Part shown: positions 3,349 to 8,298 of the stretch, one piece after another | How the letters are laid out: every line of letters begins with the position of its first letter | Numbering within the stretch: the stretch's first letter is position 1 | Source of the DNA: Bacteroidota bacterium | GTDB taxonomy: Bacteria > Bacteroidota > JABWAT01 | Assembly (NCBI GenBank): GCA_013360915.1 | Contig: JABWAT010000001.1 | Location: 131,259-195,258, forward strand | Direction of reading: 5' to 3' | DNA length: 64,000 nucleotides | Made by a program: the position numbers and the translations under genes | The notes under the pieces: generated by a model | Told to the model about the DNA's origin: nothing | The model's input: the letters and a program-made list of their open reading frames with translations, nothing else | The model's database searches: none

Positions 3349-3374
3349 AAAAAGCACAGAGTGGTCTGTGCTTT
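3349..3374 (-). terminator. Rho-independent terminator after tonB
   Basis: On the minus strand, AAAGCACAG, a 6-nt loop and CTGTGCTTT form a 9-bp stem (3351-3374), followed by a run of T interrupted by one CTG. It lies 31 nt beyond the stop of the TonB gene and ends right at the start codon of the SpoIIE phosphatase gene. It probably separates the two transcription units but could also act as an attenuator. Confidence 0.65.
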
Positions 3375-3404
3375 CGCCTGGCTTTCAGTTTCTGATCTGG
3401 TAAC

Positions 3405-4055
3405 TTATGATTTCAGTTTGAACCGGACCGGGATGGTCAGCCATACTTTTACAGGCTTACCGCGTTGACTTCCCGGCTTGAATTTGGCCTTCATCACCGC
3501 CTCGGTGGCTGCTTCATCGCAACCAGCACCAATTCCTTTGGCAACGACCGCTTTGATCACATCGCCCTTTTCATTGATGGCCGCACGGATCACCACCGTA
3601 CCTTCAATTCCGGCACGTTTGGCAATTTCAGGATATACAATGGCCTTCTGAATAGCAGCAAGTCCACCCACGATTTCCGGTAATTCCTCAACCACTTCAA
3701 AAATGGCTGCTTCTTCTTCTTCAGCCACAGTTGGAGGAGGAGGAGGGGGCGGTGGCGCACTGACATCCAGTTCTGATTCAAATACAATTTCATCATCAAT
3801 CACGGCATCATTGGGAACGAGAACCGGAACCTGAGGACGGGGAGGAGGAGGCGGCTTTACTTCCTGTTTGGTGATGGCGATTTCTTCAATTTTAATGGCT
3901 TCCTGTTCCTTAACCGTAATCACTGTTTGGTTTTTCAGATCAGGAAAGAAATAGAAGCCCAATACAAGCAGACCAAGTACAATGGAAACCGATGTCTCCA
4001 TGTACAATTTCCAGTGCCGCCTGATATCAGCTTCGGGGGTTTTGATAATTGGCAT
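3405..4055 (-). CDS. TonB family protein
   Basis: A 216-residue energy-transducing TonB protein. It has a short cytoplasmic N-terminus, one hydrophobic helix (about 22-38), a periplasmic spacer with proline runs (68-75 and 101-108) and a C-terminal TonB domain. The domain carries the family signature 'YPEIAKRAGIEGTVVI' (141-156) and the ending 'KVWLTIPVRF'. TonB proteins couple the proton gradient, through ExbB/ExbD, to outer-membrane receptors. ExbBD genes are not in the window. The start has a GAGGA ribosome site, and a consensus-like promoter lies just upstream, so this gene may be expressed apart from its paralogue upstream. Confidence 0.92.
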   Translation of the reverse strand: MPIIKTPEADIRRHWKLYMETSVSIVLGLLVLGFYFFPDLKNQTVITVKEQEAIKIEEIAITKQEVKPPPPPRPQVPVLVPNDAVIDDEIVFESELDVSAPPPPPPPPTVAEEEEAAIFEVVEELPEIVGGLAAIQKAIVYPEIAKRAGIEGTVVIRAAINEKGDVIKAVVAKGIGAGCDEAATEAVMKAKFKPGSQRGKPVKVWLTIPVRFKLKS

Positions 4056-4083: not shown

Positions 4084-4112
4084 AATATAACCGCTGATTA
4101 TTTTATTGTCAA
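4084..4112 (-). promoter_or_regulatory. Sigma-70-type promoter for the 3405-4055 tonB gene
   Basis: On the minus strand the 64-nt gap between the two tonB genes holds TTGACA (4107-4112), a 17-nt spacer and TATATT (4084-4089). This is nearly the full housekeeping consensus. Transcription would start near 4077, about 22 nt before the ATG at 4055. Confidence 0.65.
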
Positions 4113-4118
4113 ACCACT

Positions 4119-4772
4119 CTAGAAACCGCTTTTTACCGAAAATCGGACAGGAATCGCCATCCTGACTTTTACAGGTTTCCCTTGCTGCAAGGCTGGCTGA
4201 AATTTCATAAGCTTCAACGCCCTGATTACCTCTTCATCCAGACCATACCCTAATGATTTTATAATCTCAACAGATTCCACTCCACCCGACTTGTTTACCA
4301 CAATTCTGGCCAGAACTGTTCCGCCGATTCCCAGTTGCCGTGCCTGGTCGGGATACCTGATTTCCTTCATCAGAGCTGAAGTGCCACCAATCAGAACCGG
4401 CGCTTCCTCCCAGAAATCGATGGGACCAGGTTCTGTCTCTTCGGGTTTCCAAAGGGAAGGCGGCGTAATGGGAACTTCGCTTACTTCGCTTGAATGGTAA
4501 ATCATTTCATTTGGAATCATGGTTTCATTGGGAACTGCCACCGGAACTGCAGGCCGGATGGGCTCGGGCGGATGAACCGCCTGAACAGTCAAGGGTATCA
4601 TCTCTATGCGGTCGGGTTCTGAAACCGGTACTTTAAACGTCACCACGGGCCTGATATCGGGAAAGTACAGGAATAAAAGGATCAATCCACCAAGAATTCC
4701 TGCCATCGATACCTGGGTACTTCGTTTCCAGGTCAGTTCAAGGTTTGCTGCTTCAGTCTTATACAGTCCCAT
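4119..4772 (-). CDS. TonB family protein, coupled to the thiamine-type receptor
   Basis: A second TonB, 217 residues. The open frame extends to 4871, but I place the start at the ATG at 4770-4772: it has a GGAGG ribosome site 5 nt upstream, gives MGLYKTEAANLELTWKRSTQ directly before the membrane helix, and avoids overlap with the receptor gene. It has one N-terminal transmembrane segment, a shorter and less proline-dense spacer than its neighbour, and a C-terminal TonB domain with 'YPDQARQLGIGGTVLARI' and the ending 'KVRMAIPVRF'. It begins 68 nt after the receptor stop on the same strand, so it is probably co-transcribed with it and may energise it specifically. Confidence 0.88.
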   Translation of the reverse strand: MGLYKTEAANLELTWKRSTQVSMAGILGGLILLFLYFPDIRPVVTFKVPVSEPDRIEMIPLTVQAVHPPEPIRPAVPVAVPNETMIPNEMIYHSSEVSEVPITPPSLWKPEETEPGPIDFWEEAPVLIGGTSALMKEIRYPDQARQLGIGGTVLARIVVNKSGGVESVEIIKSLGYGLDEEVIRALKLMKFQPALQQGKPVKVRMAIPVRFSVKSGF

Positions 4773-4840
4773 CTCATCCTCCGGTTGGTTTCCCTTCTGG
4801 AGAATGATACCTGCCACCATTTCGAAAGTTCCCGCATGCC

Positions 4841-7300
4841 TCACCAACGCCACGAAAACCGGGTCATCCAATGCCGGCCGGCCTGTGGGTAGTAAAAATT
4901 CTCGGTTACCCGCTCCCCTCCTGAGATATATCCCCAGGTATATCCATTTGATTCGTAAAGTTGATTGAACAGATTGTATACTCCTGCTTCGATCAGCCAG
5001 GTCTCCCCGGATTCGCTTAACCGGACCATCCAGTTGATGGTTGTATACGCGTCAAGCATCCGATCGGAACTGCCAGTATTATCGAGATATTGCCCACCAA
5101 CATATTTTACCTGTATTTCCGATTGCAGATCGGTTTTTTCCCTGAACGGATTCAGGAGAAACAGGTCCGTATTCAGACCAAAAGAGCCGGTTACGGTTGG
5201 GGTGAAAGCAATCGGTTTATTGTGATACTTTTTTCTGTCCTCGGTATTGGTATCATAGTTAAAGAGATACTCATTATACGTCTCAATCCCCGATTTCATC
5301 AGGGTCAGATTGGCATGAATCTGATTACTGGTGGTTAACTGTCCACCAAATTCAAGTTCCACTCCCGAACGGTAACTGGCCGGCACATTGGTCCGGGTGT
5401 AGTTTCCCACATCGTTGACTGCCCCGGTCAGAACCAACTGGTCTTTGTAATTCATATAAAACAGGTTAACTGTTGAGTACCAGTTTTCATTCATCGTCCA
5501 GGTAAAACCGGATTCCAGGTTTCTGAGATATTCGGCTTTGGGACGTGATTGCGGCGAGGAATTCACATATTCTTCACGGGTTGGCTCCTTGGCTGACTGG
5601 CCAACAAACAGCCATCCGCTCAATGAAGCGGATTGTCTCCAGAAGATCCCAGCCTTTGGATTGAAGAATGTTAACTCATCGCTCACATAACCCCGACTCA
5701 GGTCAGTCTGATAGCCCAAAAACCGGTATCGGATCTGACGAACCTGTCCGTCCAGGAAAAATTCGAAGTGATCGGTGGTGTACTTCCACTTTCCAAACAC
5801 ATTCCAGTCGGTTTTTCTGGCTTCATTTTCGTAGTACCGATCCCCTGTCTCGCTGGCCGATGCATACCGGGCCCAGGTCACCTCACCAAAATGGTCCCCA
5901 TCATATTGTGATAATCCGCCACCTGCCACAAAGGACTGGTCATTGTCCGGATCGTACCGGAAAGATCCGAGTAAACCACCGAAGGTGTTATCCAGCCACC
6001 GGCGACGGATCAGGTCGGTGGTCCGGATCGTATCGGCACTCAGGATGATATCGGGAATGCCGTACTCTGACAGAGATTGGCTGTTTTTATACTCCTCATA
6101 AAATCCACTGCCCAGAACCACGAACCCAGCCAGATCCACAGTGAGCTCATTTGTCAGTTGCCTTGAATACAACACTTGATAGTGATCCTGGCCGTACCGG
6201 TCATCCTGTCCATCATAAGTGTAATAATTATACGTTCTGCCGGATCGGAGAAGGTTATCGGTTTCGGCTGGAGACAGTCCATTGCGGGATGCGTAATCCA
6301 GCATTTTTTGTTTATCATTTCTTATTCTGGACTCGGGAACGCCATACCACGCCTGACCGGTGACTTCCCTCCCGTAAATCACATTGGCTGAGAAAACGGA
6401 CACTTCATCCCGGTGACTCAGGGTCAGGTAGGCTGATTTCAGATCAGATTCAGACCGATCTACATACCCATCGGATTGAATGGCCGATGCACTGACCGAA
6501 AAACTCCATCCATCTCCCAGATCACCGGTTCCGCTTTTCAGATTGATCCGACGGGTGTTGAAAGATCCGTAACCAGTTGTGATTTCTGTGAAAGGCTGAT
6601 GTGAAAACCGTGTGGTGGCCAGGTCGAGTGTGGCTCCAAAATTGGCTGGTCCGGCCGTGCTGGTACCGACACCGCGTTGAAGTTGAATCGATTCGGTGGA
6701 AGATAGAAGATCAGGCAGATTCACCCAGTACACCTGATGCGATTCAGGATCGTTCCAGGGAATACCGTTCAGTGTCACATTAATCCGTGCCTGATCGATA
6801 CCTCGAAACCGAAGACCGGTATAACCAATTCCCGCCCCCGCATCAGAGGTCGAAACCACCGACGGAAGACTCTGAAGCACCTGAGGTACATCTTTTCCCG
6901 AATTGAGGGTTGAAATAGATTCTGCCCCCAGTTCATCCACCACCTGTGACCGGGACTGGGATCGGTGACTCTCGACCTGAATCAGTCCTTTCAGATTCAG
7001 ATCAATGGACTGCATTTCAATTCTGACCGATGAAAGATTGTCCTGCATTGTCAGATCAACTTGCACCTGATTATAGCCCAGATAGTTGATCTGAAGAGTG
7101 ATGGGAAGACTGCCGGTCGTGGTCAGCGTAAAACGGCCATCCCGATCCGTGGTAGTTCCTGCTTTAAACTCAGGAATGGAAACGGATGCGCTGAACAAAG
7201 GTTCTCCGGTTTTGGCATCCACCACCTTCCCGGAAATAGTAAGTTGTGCAAATCCTGTTGTATACAGAATGAGAGAAAAGAAAAGAAGAGCAGTTTTCAT
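4841..7300 (-). CDS. TonB-dependent outer-membrane receptor, predicted thiamine uptake
   Basis: An 819-residue receptor. It has a signal peptide (about 1-18), a CarboxypepD_reg-like beta domain (about 20-100, beginning 'LTISGKVVDAKTGEPLF'), a plug domain (about 120-230, with 'LRFRGIDQARINVTLNGIP') and a large beta-barrel ending in an aromatic-rich strand 'HWMTRFSWRW'. The ribosome site GGTGGA precedes the ATG. The 5' leader contains a TPP riboswitch, a feature known to mark thiamine-pathway and thiamine-transport genes, including predicted Bacteroidetes outer-membrane thiamine receptors. The receptor fold is certain; the substrate is an inference from the riboswitch. A TonB gene follows directly. 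Confidence 0.9.
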   Translation of the reverse strand: MKTALLFFSLILYTTGFAQLTISGKVVDAKTGEPLFSASVSIPEFKAGTTTDRDGRFTLTTTGSLPITLQINYLGYNQVQVDLTMQDNLSSVRIEMQSIDLNLKGLIQVESHRSQSRSQVVDELGAESISTLNSGKDVPQVLQSLPSVVSTSDAGAGIGYTGLRFRGIDQARINVTLNGIPWNDPESHQVYWVNLPDLLSSTESIQLQRGVGTSTAGPANFGATLDLATTRFSHQPFTEITTGYGSFNTRRINLKSGTGDLGDGWSFSVSASAIQSDGYVDRSESDLKSAYLTLSHRDEVSVFSANVIYGREVTGQAWYGVPESRIRNDKQKMLDYASRNGLSPAETDNLLRSGRTYNYYTYDGQDDRYGQDHYQVLYSRQLTNELTVDLAGFVVLGSGFYEEYKNSQSLSEYGIPDIILSADTIRTTDLIRRRWLDNTFGGLLGSFRYDPDNDQSFVAGGGLSQYDGDHFGEVTWARYASASETGDRYYENEARKTDWNVFGKWKYTTDHFEFFLDGQVRQIRYRFLGYQTDLSRGYVSDELTFFNPKAGIFWRQSASLSGWLFVGQSAKEPTREEYVNSSPQSRPKAEYLRNLESGFTWTMNENWYSTVNLFYMNYKDQLVLTGAVNDVGNYTRTNVPASYRSGVELEFGGQLTTSNQIHANLTLMKSGIETYNEYLFNYDTNTEDRKKYHNKPIAFTPTVTGSFGLNTDLFLLNPFREKTDLQSEIQVKYVGGQYLDNTGSSDRMLDAYTTINWMVRLSESGETWLIEAGVYNLFNQLYESNGYTWGYISGGERVTENFYYPQAGRHWMTRFSWRW

Positions 7301-7371
7301 GAATCCACCATTTTATTAGGGTTAATAAAACAGTTGGAGAGTAATGAGAAGTGTGAAGTCGATGTGCCCAT

Positions 7372-7453
7372 CGGTTTCCCTACGCCGGTACAAACCGGAT
7401 CAGGTTCACAGGGTATGATCTCAGTCCCGAGGCAAACGGGACACCCCCAACCA
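7372..7453 (-). promoter_or_regulatory. TPP (thiamine pyrophosphate) riboswitch
   Basis: The minus strand reads GGGGGTGTCCC, then the invariant CUGAGA (7419-7424), ACCCTGTGA, ACCUGAUC (7398-7405) and GCGUAGGGAA, in the order and spacing of the THI element. The closing helix P1 forms between GGTT (7449-7452) and AACC (7373-7376). A 5-bp hairpin (7360-7364 with 7369-7373) shares bases with the 3' side of P1 and may be part of the switch. The element lies 72 nt before the receptor start at 7300. No T-tract follows, so control may act on translation. Confidence 0.95.
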
Positions 7454-7490
7454 GTAACAGACAAACAGCAATAAAACGCGGTGTGTTCCG

Positions 7491-7712
7491 CTATCCTTCC
7501 AACCAGGCCAGCGAGTCGTTTTCGGGCTCGTCCTTTTTGGCGTAGGCCTGTTCCTTCGGAATATCCTTTTTTACCGTGTCACTGTTGCAATCGGGACAAC
7601 GATACCCTTTGATCAGAAATCCGGGGCGTTTTCCACAGGTATTGCACCAGAGAACGGTGATCAGGCCAGTGTTTTTTGCTTTTTGTTCTGCCACGGTGCG
7701 AAAATACAACAT
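7491..7712 (-). CDS. Small zinc-ribbon protein
   Basis: A 73-residue ORF with two CxxC knuckles, 'CNTCGKRPG' and 'CPDCNSDT', spaced like a rubredoxin-type zinc ribbon, followed by a charged tail. I do not recognise a named family. An exact TATAAT box at 7736-7741 would start transcription about 17 nt before the ATG, which supports a real gene, but no Shine-Dalgarno sequence is visible. A GTG at 7694 is an alternative start. It lies upstream of the riboswitch on the same strand, so it could be the first gene of the receptor transcript. A nucleic-acid- or metal-binding role is only a guess. Confidence 0.55.
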   Translation of the reverse strand: MLYFRTVAEQKAKNTGLITVLWCNTCGKRPGFLIKGYRCPDCNSDTVKKDIPKEQAYAKKDEPENDSLAWLEG

Positions 7713-7869: not shown

Positions 7870-8298
7870 ATGAAACCATTCATCTACGCAATTATTACTG
7901 CCATGGCCTGGGGAATCGGCGGGTACTTCGAGAAAAAAGGACTTCATATGGGCAATCTGTCACCGCAGATGGGAATCACTATCCGGACGGCCATTGCCCT
8001 GCTGATTCTGGGTGCAGTGAGCTTTCCTGAGTGGAAAGGTATTATGAACGCCGGCCCCAAAGCCCTGATGTACATGATCATTGGAGGAGGAATAGTGGCC
8101 GGCAGCATCGGAATGCTCTGTTTTTACATGGCCATCAAGGGAGCACCTCTCAGTCAGGTCATGCCGATTGCCTTCACTTCTCCCTTGTTTGGTGCGCTGA
8201 TGGGAATCATTTACGGCGGAGAACCCATTGAGGTGAAAACCATCGTAGGGATGGTTCTTACCATCAGCGGAATTGTGGTATTGACCGTAAAATGGTAA
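7870..8298 (+). CDS. Small EamA/DMT-type membrane protein
   Basis: A 142-residue, very hydrophobic protein that corresponds to one EamA repeat. It opens 'MKPFIYAIITAMAWGIGGYF' and has about four to five membrane helices, with 'APLSQVMPIAFTSPLFGALMG' shortened here to its recognisable core 'SQVMPIAFTSPLF'. Full drug/metabolite transporters carry two such repeats, so this half-size form would have to dimerise, as small DMT proteins do. AAAGGA precedes the ATG at 8 nt. It is the only plus-strand gene in this part and converges with lon, with a 13-nt gap between the stops. The substrate cannot be predicted. Confidence 0.85.
   Translation: MKPFIYAIITAMAWGIGGYFEKKGLHMGNLSPQMGITIRTAIALLILGAVSFPEWKGIMNAGPKALMYMIIGGGIVAGSIGMLCFYMAIKGAPLSQVMPIAFTSPLFGALMGIIYGGEPIEVKTIVGMVLTISGIVVLTVKW

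Follow-up and report, generated by a model that had tools for sequence, protein, structure and literature searches.

A TPP riboswitch, a thiamine-type TonB-dependent receptor and a presumed dedicated TonB in a family of Bacteroidota

Described systems and the locus in the window

In the usual picture of TonB-dependent uptake, a single TonB is shared by numerous receptors that compete for it. The locus analyzed here lies in a stretch of 64,000 nucleotides (nt) from a Bacteroidota bacterium of the lineage JABWAT01 (contig JABWAT010000001.1, positions 131,259 to 195,258; the whole stretch is referred to as the window) and comprises a thiamine pyrophosphate (TPP) riboswitch, the gene of a TonB-dependent outer-membrane receptor and two tonB genes, tonB1 and tonB2 (Table 1). 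The pairing of riboswitch and receptor is of an already known kind. Like the receptor of the window, OMthi (BT2390) of Bacteroides thetaiotaomicron is a TonB-dependent receptor encoded behind a TPP riboswitch (PMC5613172), a likeness drawn by description and not by alignment. Mutants of B. thetaiotaomicron devoid of biosynthesis and of OMthi (or pnuT) needed about tenfold more thiamine (PMC5613172), and omr has been described as a TPP-regulated receptor gene (PMC2211319). In Bacteroides, OMthi stands alone or together with pnuT-tnr3, and a tonB gene is not mentioned in the available parts of the literature on it, whereas in the window tonB follows the receptor, and transport across the inner membrane probably depends on a symporter encoded elsewhere.

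For the TonB adjoining the receptor, the closest parallel is HasB of Serratia marcescens, a TonB paralogue whose gene shares a locus with that of the receptor HasR and which shows low identity to the general TonB (PMC9008036). In this species ExbBD is active with both HasB and the general TonB (PMC9008036). However, the HasB system serves haem uptake, whereas the window combines a TPP riboswitch with a vitamin receptor, and the specificity of TonB1 is putative. Helicobacter pylori likewise possesses several TonB proteins with different roles (TonB1, TonB2 and TonB3), but a riboswitch and a vitamin receptor are unmentioned in the available text. No case of a TonB under TPP control was met among the papers listed, as judged by titles and the beginnings of abstracts.

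In terms of gene content, the same three functions are found in other families of the phylum in TPP operons of the order receptor, thiamine pyrophosphokinase (TPK) and sodium:solute symporter (for example loci L036, L037 and L051), where the TPP riboswitch also precedes the receptor. In contrast to these operons, the family of the window keeps TPK and symporter away from the switch and carries two tonB genes behind the receptor. New in the present locus are the attached TonB1 and the location of TPK and symporter apart from the switch. As a whole, the locus is read, with moderate confidence, as a TPP-repressed thiamine-uptake unit consisting of the receptor and a dedicated TonB1, with TonB2 standing separately. 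The more specific proposal, that the riboswitch governs the receptor together with a private TonB, so that the TPP level of the cell would set the energy coupling of the outer membrane as such, and that TonB1 co-evolved with this single thiamine receptor, is tentative and falls somewhat short of an even call.

The family is represented here by four genomes with an estimated completeness of 94–99%, among them that of the window (G000, 99.35%). Across the phylum, 69 places with TPP loci were listed in 60 genomes (own genome included), of which 40 were opened in addition to the window; in two of these, L038 and L043, no more than about 4 kb follow the aptamer. Among the 41 opened loci, four belong to the family and 20 others begin with a receptor.

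Riboswitch and receptor

An earlier note, made from the sequence alone, had claimed a complete TPP riboswitch including P1, located 72 nt before the start of a receptor, and had named a covariance search with the Rfam model as a check. This search returned RF00059 with 70.7 bits, well above the gathering score of 54.3 (E 6.7e-12). The alignment covers the entire model from 1 to 105 without truncation, and the element has no P3a stem, which is optional in this family. P1 is complete, with UGGUU (7453–7449) pairing with AACCG (7376–7372) and including one U-G pair, and the distance from its 3' end to the A of the receptor start codon (7300) indeed amounts to 72 nt. It is the single match to RF00059 in the genome, and the switch is predicted to respond to TPP.

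The open reading frame (ORF) behind it encodes a protein of 819 amino acids in which Pfam recognizes a Plug domain with 38.6 bits and, at the N-terminus, CarbopepD_reg_2 with 64.6 bits. An AlphaFold2 model, based on 26 sequences (the window, three family relatives and 22 of the 80 relative loci described below), has a mean predicted local distance difference test score (pLDDT) of 78.9, and the strands of a C-terminal β-barrel are visible. The top match in the PDB is PqqU, with YncD, FhuA and BtuB, which are also TonB-dependent receptors, listed further down. Residues 100–121, which bear on the question of a TonB box, have a pLDDT below 50 and are variable among relatives.

In genome contigs, two peptide patterns yielded a list of at least 576 receptor relatives, the best 80 of which (35–46% identity) were analyzed; this set is biased toward close relatives. 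A TPP element is situated just upstream of the receptor in 78 of the 80, as detected with a covariance model (R1) which was built from 21 of the first 30 TPP loci and whose E-values are rough. Relative to the point where the tblastn match begins, the elements lie between 269 nt before it and 15 nt inside it. In the two relatives without a TPP element, L143 and L151, the distance between the beginning of the receptor match and a contig end is 5 and 107 nt. Directly behind the receptor, four of the 80 relatives encode a PnuT-like and five a ThiE-like protein, and TPK and a sodium:solute symporter follow in eight of the 20 other TPP-receptor loci of the phylum. The receptor very probably belongs among the TPP-controlled thiamine receptors (OMthi) and imports vitamin B1, with thiamine as the likely substrate, an assignment that is solid because a TPP element precedes nearly all of the nearest relatives. 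The Rfam match, the relatives and the thiamine genes behind some of them thus bear out the view of the earlier note, which had recognized a receptor of the thiamine type under a TPP riboswitch.

Between aptamer and receptor start, the scan revealed no terminator-like site on the minus strand, and folding revealed no shared switch among the four family leaders. With P1 on, compared to P1 off, the start codon is less open in the window's genome and in G001 but more open in G002 and G003. A defined expression platform was therefore rejected, since the four leaders have no common switch and no terminator-like site stands before the start codon. For the same reasons, translational action of the riboswitch can be named as a default guess only.

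The 200 nt before the riboswitch contain no recognizable promoter in any of the four genomes; the best sites reach 7–8 of 12 consensus positions, a score attained by 86–100% of shuffles (300 per spacer, preserving base composition only). Here, a small gene encodes a protein with two CXXC pairs, to which no Pfam family could be matched. A matching small ORF ends 22–32 nt before the aptamer in all four genomes (22–28 nt in the three relatives), and the best promoter sites upstream of it score 7–9, given here without a shuffle control. Because this ORF so closely precedes the aptamer throughout the family, it may be the first gene of the transcript, in which case the riboswitch would be internal to an operon instead of heading it.

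Separately, tandem matches to the TPP model can be observed before the receptor in six loci (L215, L176, L177, L202, L210 and L148), which are possible tandem TPP riboswitches. Both matches are strong in L215 (54.4 and 49.2 bits); in the other five the distal match is weak (19.6–25.7 bits).

Two TonB proteins behind the receptor

Behind the receptor the earlier note had placed a dedicated tonB gene. The gene itself is confirmed by its TonB_C domain, but a second tonB following it had been overlooked. The frame of tonB1 is open from a TTG at 4871 (4119–4871), where it would overlap the receptor by 31 nt; the ATG at 4772, preceded at a distance of 5 nt by GGAGG and in agreement with the alignment of relatives, is the likelier start. 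The typical TonB features are a terminal TonB_C domain and, as seen by eye in the alignment, a hydrophobic stretch around residue 20 as well as prolines, the linker of TonB1 being less proline-rich than that of TonB2. The order TPP riboswitch, receptor, TonB1, TonB2 is retained in all four family genomes. The gap between receptor and tonB1 measures 68 nt in the window and 110–118 nt in the relatives, and that between the two tonB genes 63–134 nt across the family.

Upstream of tonB2, a promoter-like site is present with identical hexamers and spacing (TTGACA-17-TATATT) in all four genomes, and its score is reached by only 0–1.3% of shuffles. Before tonB1 the best site matches 7–8 of 12 positions, as in 62–100% of shuffles. 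A hairpin is found behind tonB2 in each genome, by scan in the window and by eye as AAAAGCACAG/CTGTGCTTTT in the three relatives. These elements bear on the idea of a single long TPP operon that would begin at the riboswitch, include both tonB genes and reach into the gene of the SpoIIE-type phosphatase. Common strand, short gaps and the order retained in all four genomes would suit such an operon, yet the conserved promoter-like site before tonB2 and the hairpin behind it, which would still permit read-through, make it highly improbable. The notion that tonB and SpoIIE gene form an older block was likewise rejected: a TonB adjoins the phosphatase in the four family genomes and in none of the 26 other opened loci.

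A tonB directly behind such a receptor is less usual, as the earlier note had supposed: the opened stretches of the 20 other TPP-receptor loci contain no TonB_C protein. Among the 80 relatives a TonB_C protein directly follows the receptor in four, namely L139, which is very probably a member of the family itself, and L141, L142 and L143, three metagenome-assembled genomes of Flavobacteriales with the TonB_C protein about 21 nt after the receptor. L141 and L142 have a TPP match before the receptor, and L143 begins within the receptor. As independent instances of a dedicated TonB these three were rejected, since their proteins, judged by eye, begin with a signal peptide, have no TonB-type N-terminus and are extended by a long additional part at the C-terminus. 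Among the opened loci, a TonB-type protein behind a TPP receptor is therefore seen only in the family of the window.

The two TonB proteins have diverged to different extents. Identity across the family genomes is 70–95% for TonB2 (70–73% between the window and the three relatives) and 33–69% for TonB1. Between G002 and G003, the receptor is 74%, TonB1 69% and TonB2 95% identical, and the ratio of nonsynonymous to synonymous substitutions (dN/dS) is 0.11 for the receptor, 0.11 for TonB1, 0.06 for the phosphatase and 0.04 for TonB2, rough values because dS is near saturation. Within the window, TonB1 and TonB2 share 41% identity, and TonB1 belongs to the receptor locus in all four genomes. Since tonB1 lacks a promoter of the kind found before tonB2 and diverges at a rate like that of the receptor, TonB1 is read as dedicated to the receptor. 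By analogy with HasB and HasR, its gene most likely shares the messenger under TPP control and its function is most likely to energize the thiamine receptor, whereas the role of general TonB most likely falls to TonB2. TonB1 would thus be translated from the messenger of the receptor, be specific for it and presumably use the common ExbB/ExbD, genes for which are found elsewhere in the genome. Of the dedicated tonB proposed in the earlier note, conservation in four genomes and the silent promoter scan speak in its favor, and the dedication as such is plausible only.

Several observations weigh against this reading. The leader fold is ordinary compared to shuffled sequences (z -1.44; 18 of 200 shuffles fold equally well). 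Thiamine hardly altered the level of the OMthi messenger in B. thetaiotaomicron (PMC5613172), so that control may be translational or weak. The promoter scan is equally silent before the riboswitch, which renders its silence before tonB1 weak evidence, and the gap of 68 nt (110–118 nt in relatives) could house another type of promoter. Moreover, the TonB1 of the window is 39–41% identical to TonB2 proteins versus 33–35% to the TonB1 of relatives; in the TonB tree the TonB1 proteins of the three relatives cluster, that of the window forms a very long branch, and descent of all four tonB1 genes from one ancestor is therefore not proved. Rapid change in TonB1 may also reflect relaxed constraint.

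Much of this would also fit TonB1 as a tandem duplicate of the main tonB, general in function or on a transcript of its own, with TPP control confined to the receptor. The two tonB genes adjoin in all four genomes, the TonB1 of the window is nearer to its own TonB2 than to its counterparts, the uninformative promoter scan would allow a separate transcript, and the 18 matches to the plug domain in the genome would require a TonB. Nevertheless, TonB1 stays between receptor and tonB2 throughout the family, is apparently under purifying selection, as judged by the G002–G003 comparison, and changes at a rate resembling that of the receptor and not that of TonB2, which makes mere duplication rather unlikely.

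The tree contains 27 rows, remaining from 33 proteins after exclusion of five longer than 400 amino acids and of G000 C1:293540; repeat matches within one ORF, matches without a locus and the weak G000 matches L085–L087 were never part of it. Most of the other TonB_C proteins examined in the family genomes either possess a CarboxypepD_reg-like N-terminus with what looks like a signal peptide or carry TonB_C in several copies. In G000, a third TonB/TolA-like protein (C1:377662) scores 22.8 bits, below the Pfam cut-off, and has a TonB-type N-terminus by eye; because of it, no claim is made that the genome encodes two TonB proteins only. Two to four tandem TonB_C domains are located at the protein end in G000 C5:870-1427, G003 C26:33128-34348 and G001 C11:60651-61520. 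The expected place of a tonB behind exbB-exbD-exbD is occupied in the window's genome by a protein that combines CarboxypepD_reg and TonB_C, seems by eye to begin with a signal peptide and directly follows these genes (C1:382690; L104:6682-7674).

Table 1. Coordinates of the features in and around the locus (positions in the window unless a locus is named)
Feature	Position	Strand	Basis
TPP riboswitch aptamer (RF00059), P1 included	7360–7458	-	cmscan
Leader from the aptamer to the receptor start codon (presumed expression platform)	7301–7359	-	position
TonB-dependent outer-membrane receptor, thiamine type (OMthi-like)	4841–7300	-	domains, model, relatives
TonB1, presumed receptor-dedicated TonB	4119–4772	-	TonB_C 74.1 bits; position in 4/4 genomes
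Promoter-like site of tonB2, TTGACA-17-TATATT	4084–4112	-	11/12 consensus matches
TonB2, presumed general TonB	3405–4055	-	TonB_C 77.5 bits
Terminator-like hairpin behind tonB2	3350–3375	-	11-pair stem (scan)
SpoIIE/GAF phosphatase	3341–1134	-	ORF after TonB2
Small gene, 73-amino-acid protein with two CXXC pairs	7491–7712	-	ORF ending 32 nt before aptamer
EamA-type protein	7870–8298	+	ORF and Pfam
TonB_C proteins of 364–367 amino acids	L141:12427-13524, L142:4748-5851, L143:2365-3459		behind receptor

Thiamine supply and the proposed circuit

Neither ThiC nor ThiE was found in the four family genomes, with ThiC being present in 24 of the 60 genomes searched, and TPK was found in all four. Since both biosynthetic proteins were not found, whole thiamine is the likely substrate of the receptor, and the host appears to live by thiamine salvage with a carrier gene unlinked to the riboswitch. 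Members of the PnuC/PnuT family do not occur among the matches in the four genomes either, so that PnuT was rejected as the inner-membrane carrier; the earlier note had correctly seen no PnuT-like gene adjacent to the receptor. The EamA-type protein, which it had correctly assigned to the other strand, was rejected as well, being encoded on the opposite strand; in the three relatives, moreover, the 1.5 kb preceding the switch showed no EamA relative.

A better candidate adjoins TPK in all four genomes: a sodium:solute symporter, 43–46% identical to the symporter of the TPP operon in genome G054. The ORFs of TPK and symporter share 4 nt in the window's genome (C2:355000-357000; L099:7987-9992), and their locus has no TPP match there. 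The pair is possibly a detached part of the receptor–TPK–symporter TPP operon of other families, and the symporter is probably the inner-membrane carrier. The symporter gene thiV is a known target of TPP riboswitches (PMC2211319), and ThiV of SAR11, encoded behind a TPP riboswitch, is a likely carrier of hydroxymethylpyrimidine (HMP) (PMC11452348). If the symporter of the family were a relative of ThiV, this would accord with a receptor importing another B1 vitamer (thiamine phosphate, HMP or a degradation product) rather than thiamine. However, HMP alone would be of little use to the four genomes, since searches found no ThiE or ThiC in them, and they do encode TPK, an enzyme acting on thiamine, even if thiamine phosphates would still be compatible with it. 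Import of a vitamer other than thiamine is accordingly considered improbable.

With thiamine as the substrate, the proposed circuit would operate as follows. At low cellular TPP the riboswitch would keep the messenger active, and receptor and TonB1 would be produced together. TonB1, as a paralogue acting mainly or only on the thiamine receptor, would draw on the ExbB/ExbD complexes of the genome. Thiamine would then cross the inner membrane via the unlinked sodium:solute symporter and be converted to TPP by the thiamine pyrophosphokinase encoded beside it, and TPP would feed back on the riboswitch, closing the loop. TonB2, as a separate unit with its own promoter, would energize other receptors.

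If true, a TonB copy behind a single vitamin receptor and under the riboswitch of that very vitamin would represent a HasB-like solution beyond iron uptake, and it would stand in bacteria in which ThiC and ThiE were not found. The locus would offer a small, testable case of specificity between receptor and TonB. Furthermore, it suggests that the TPP operon of receptor, TPK and symporter can be split up while the pathway is retained.

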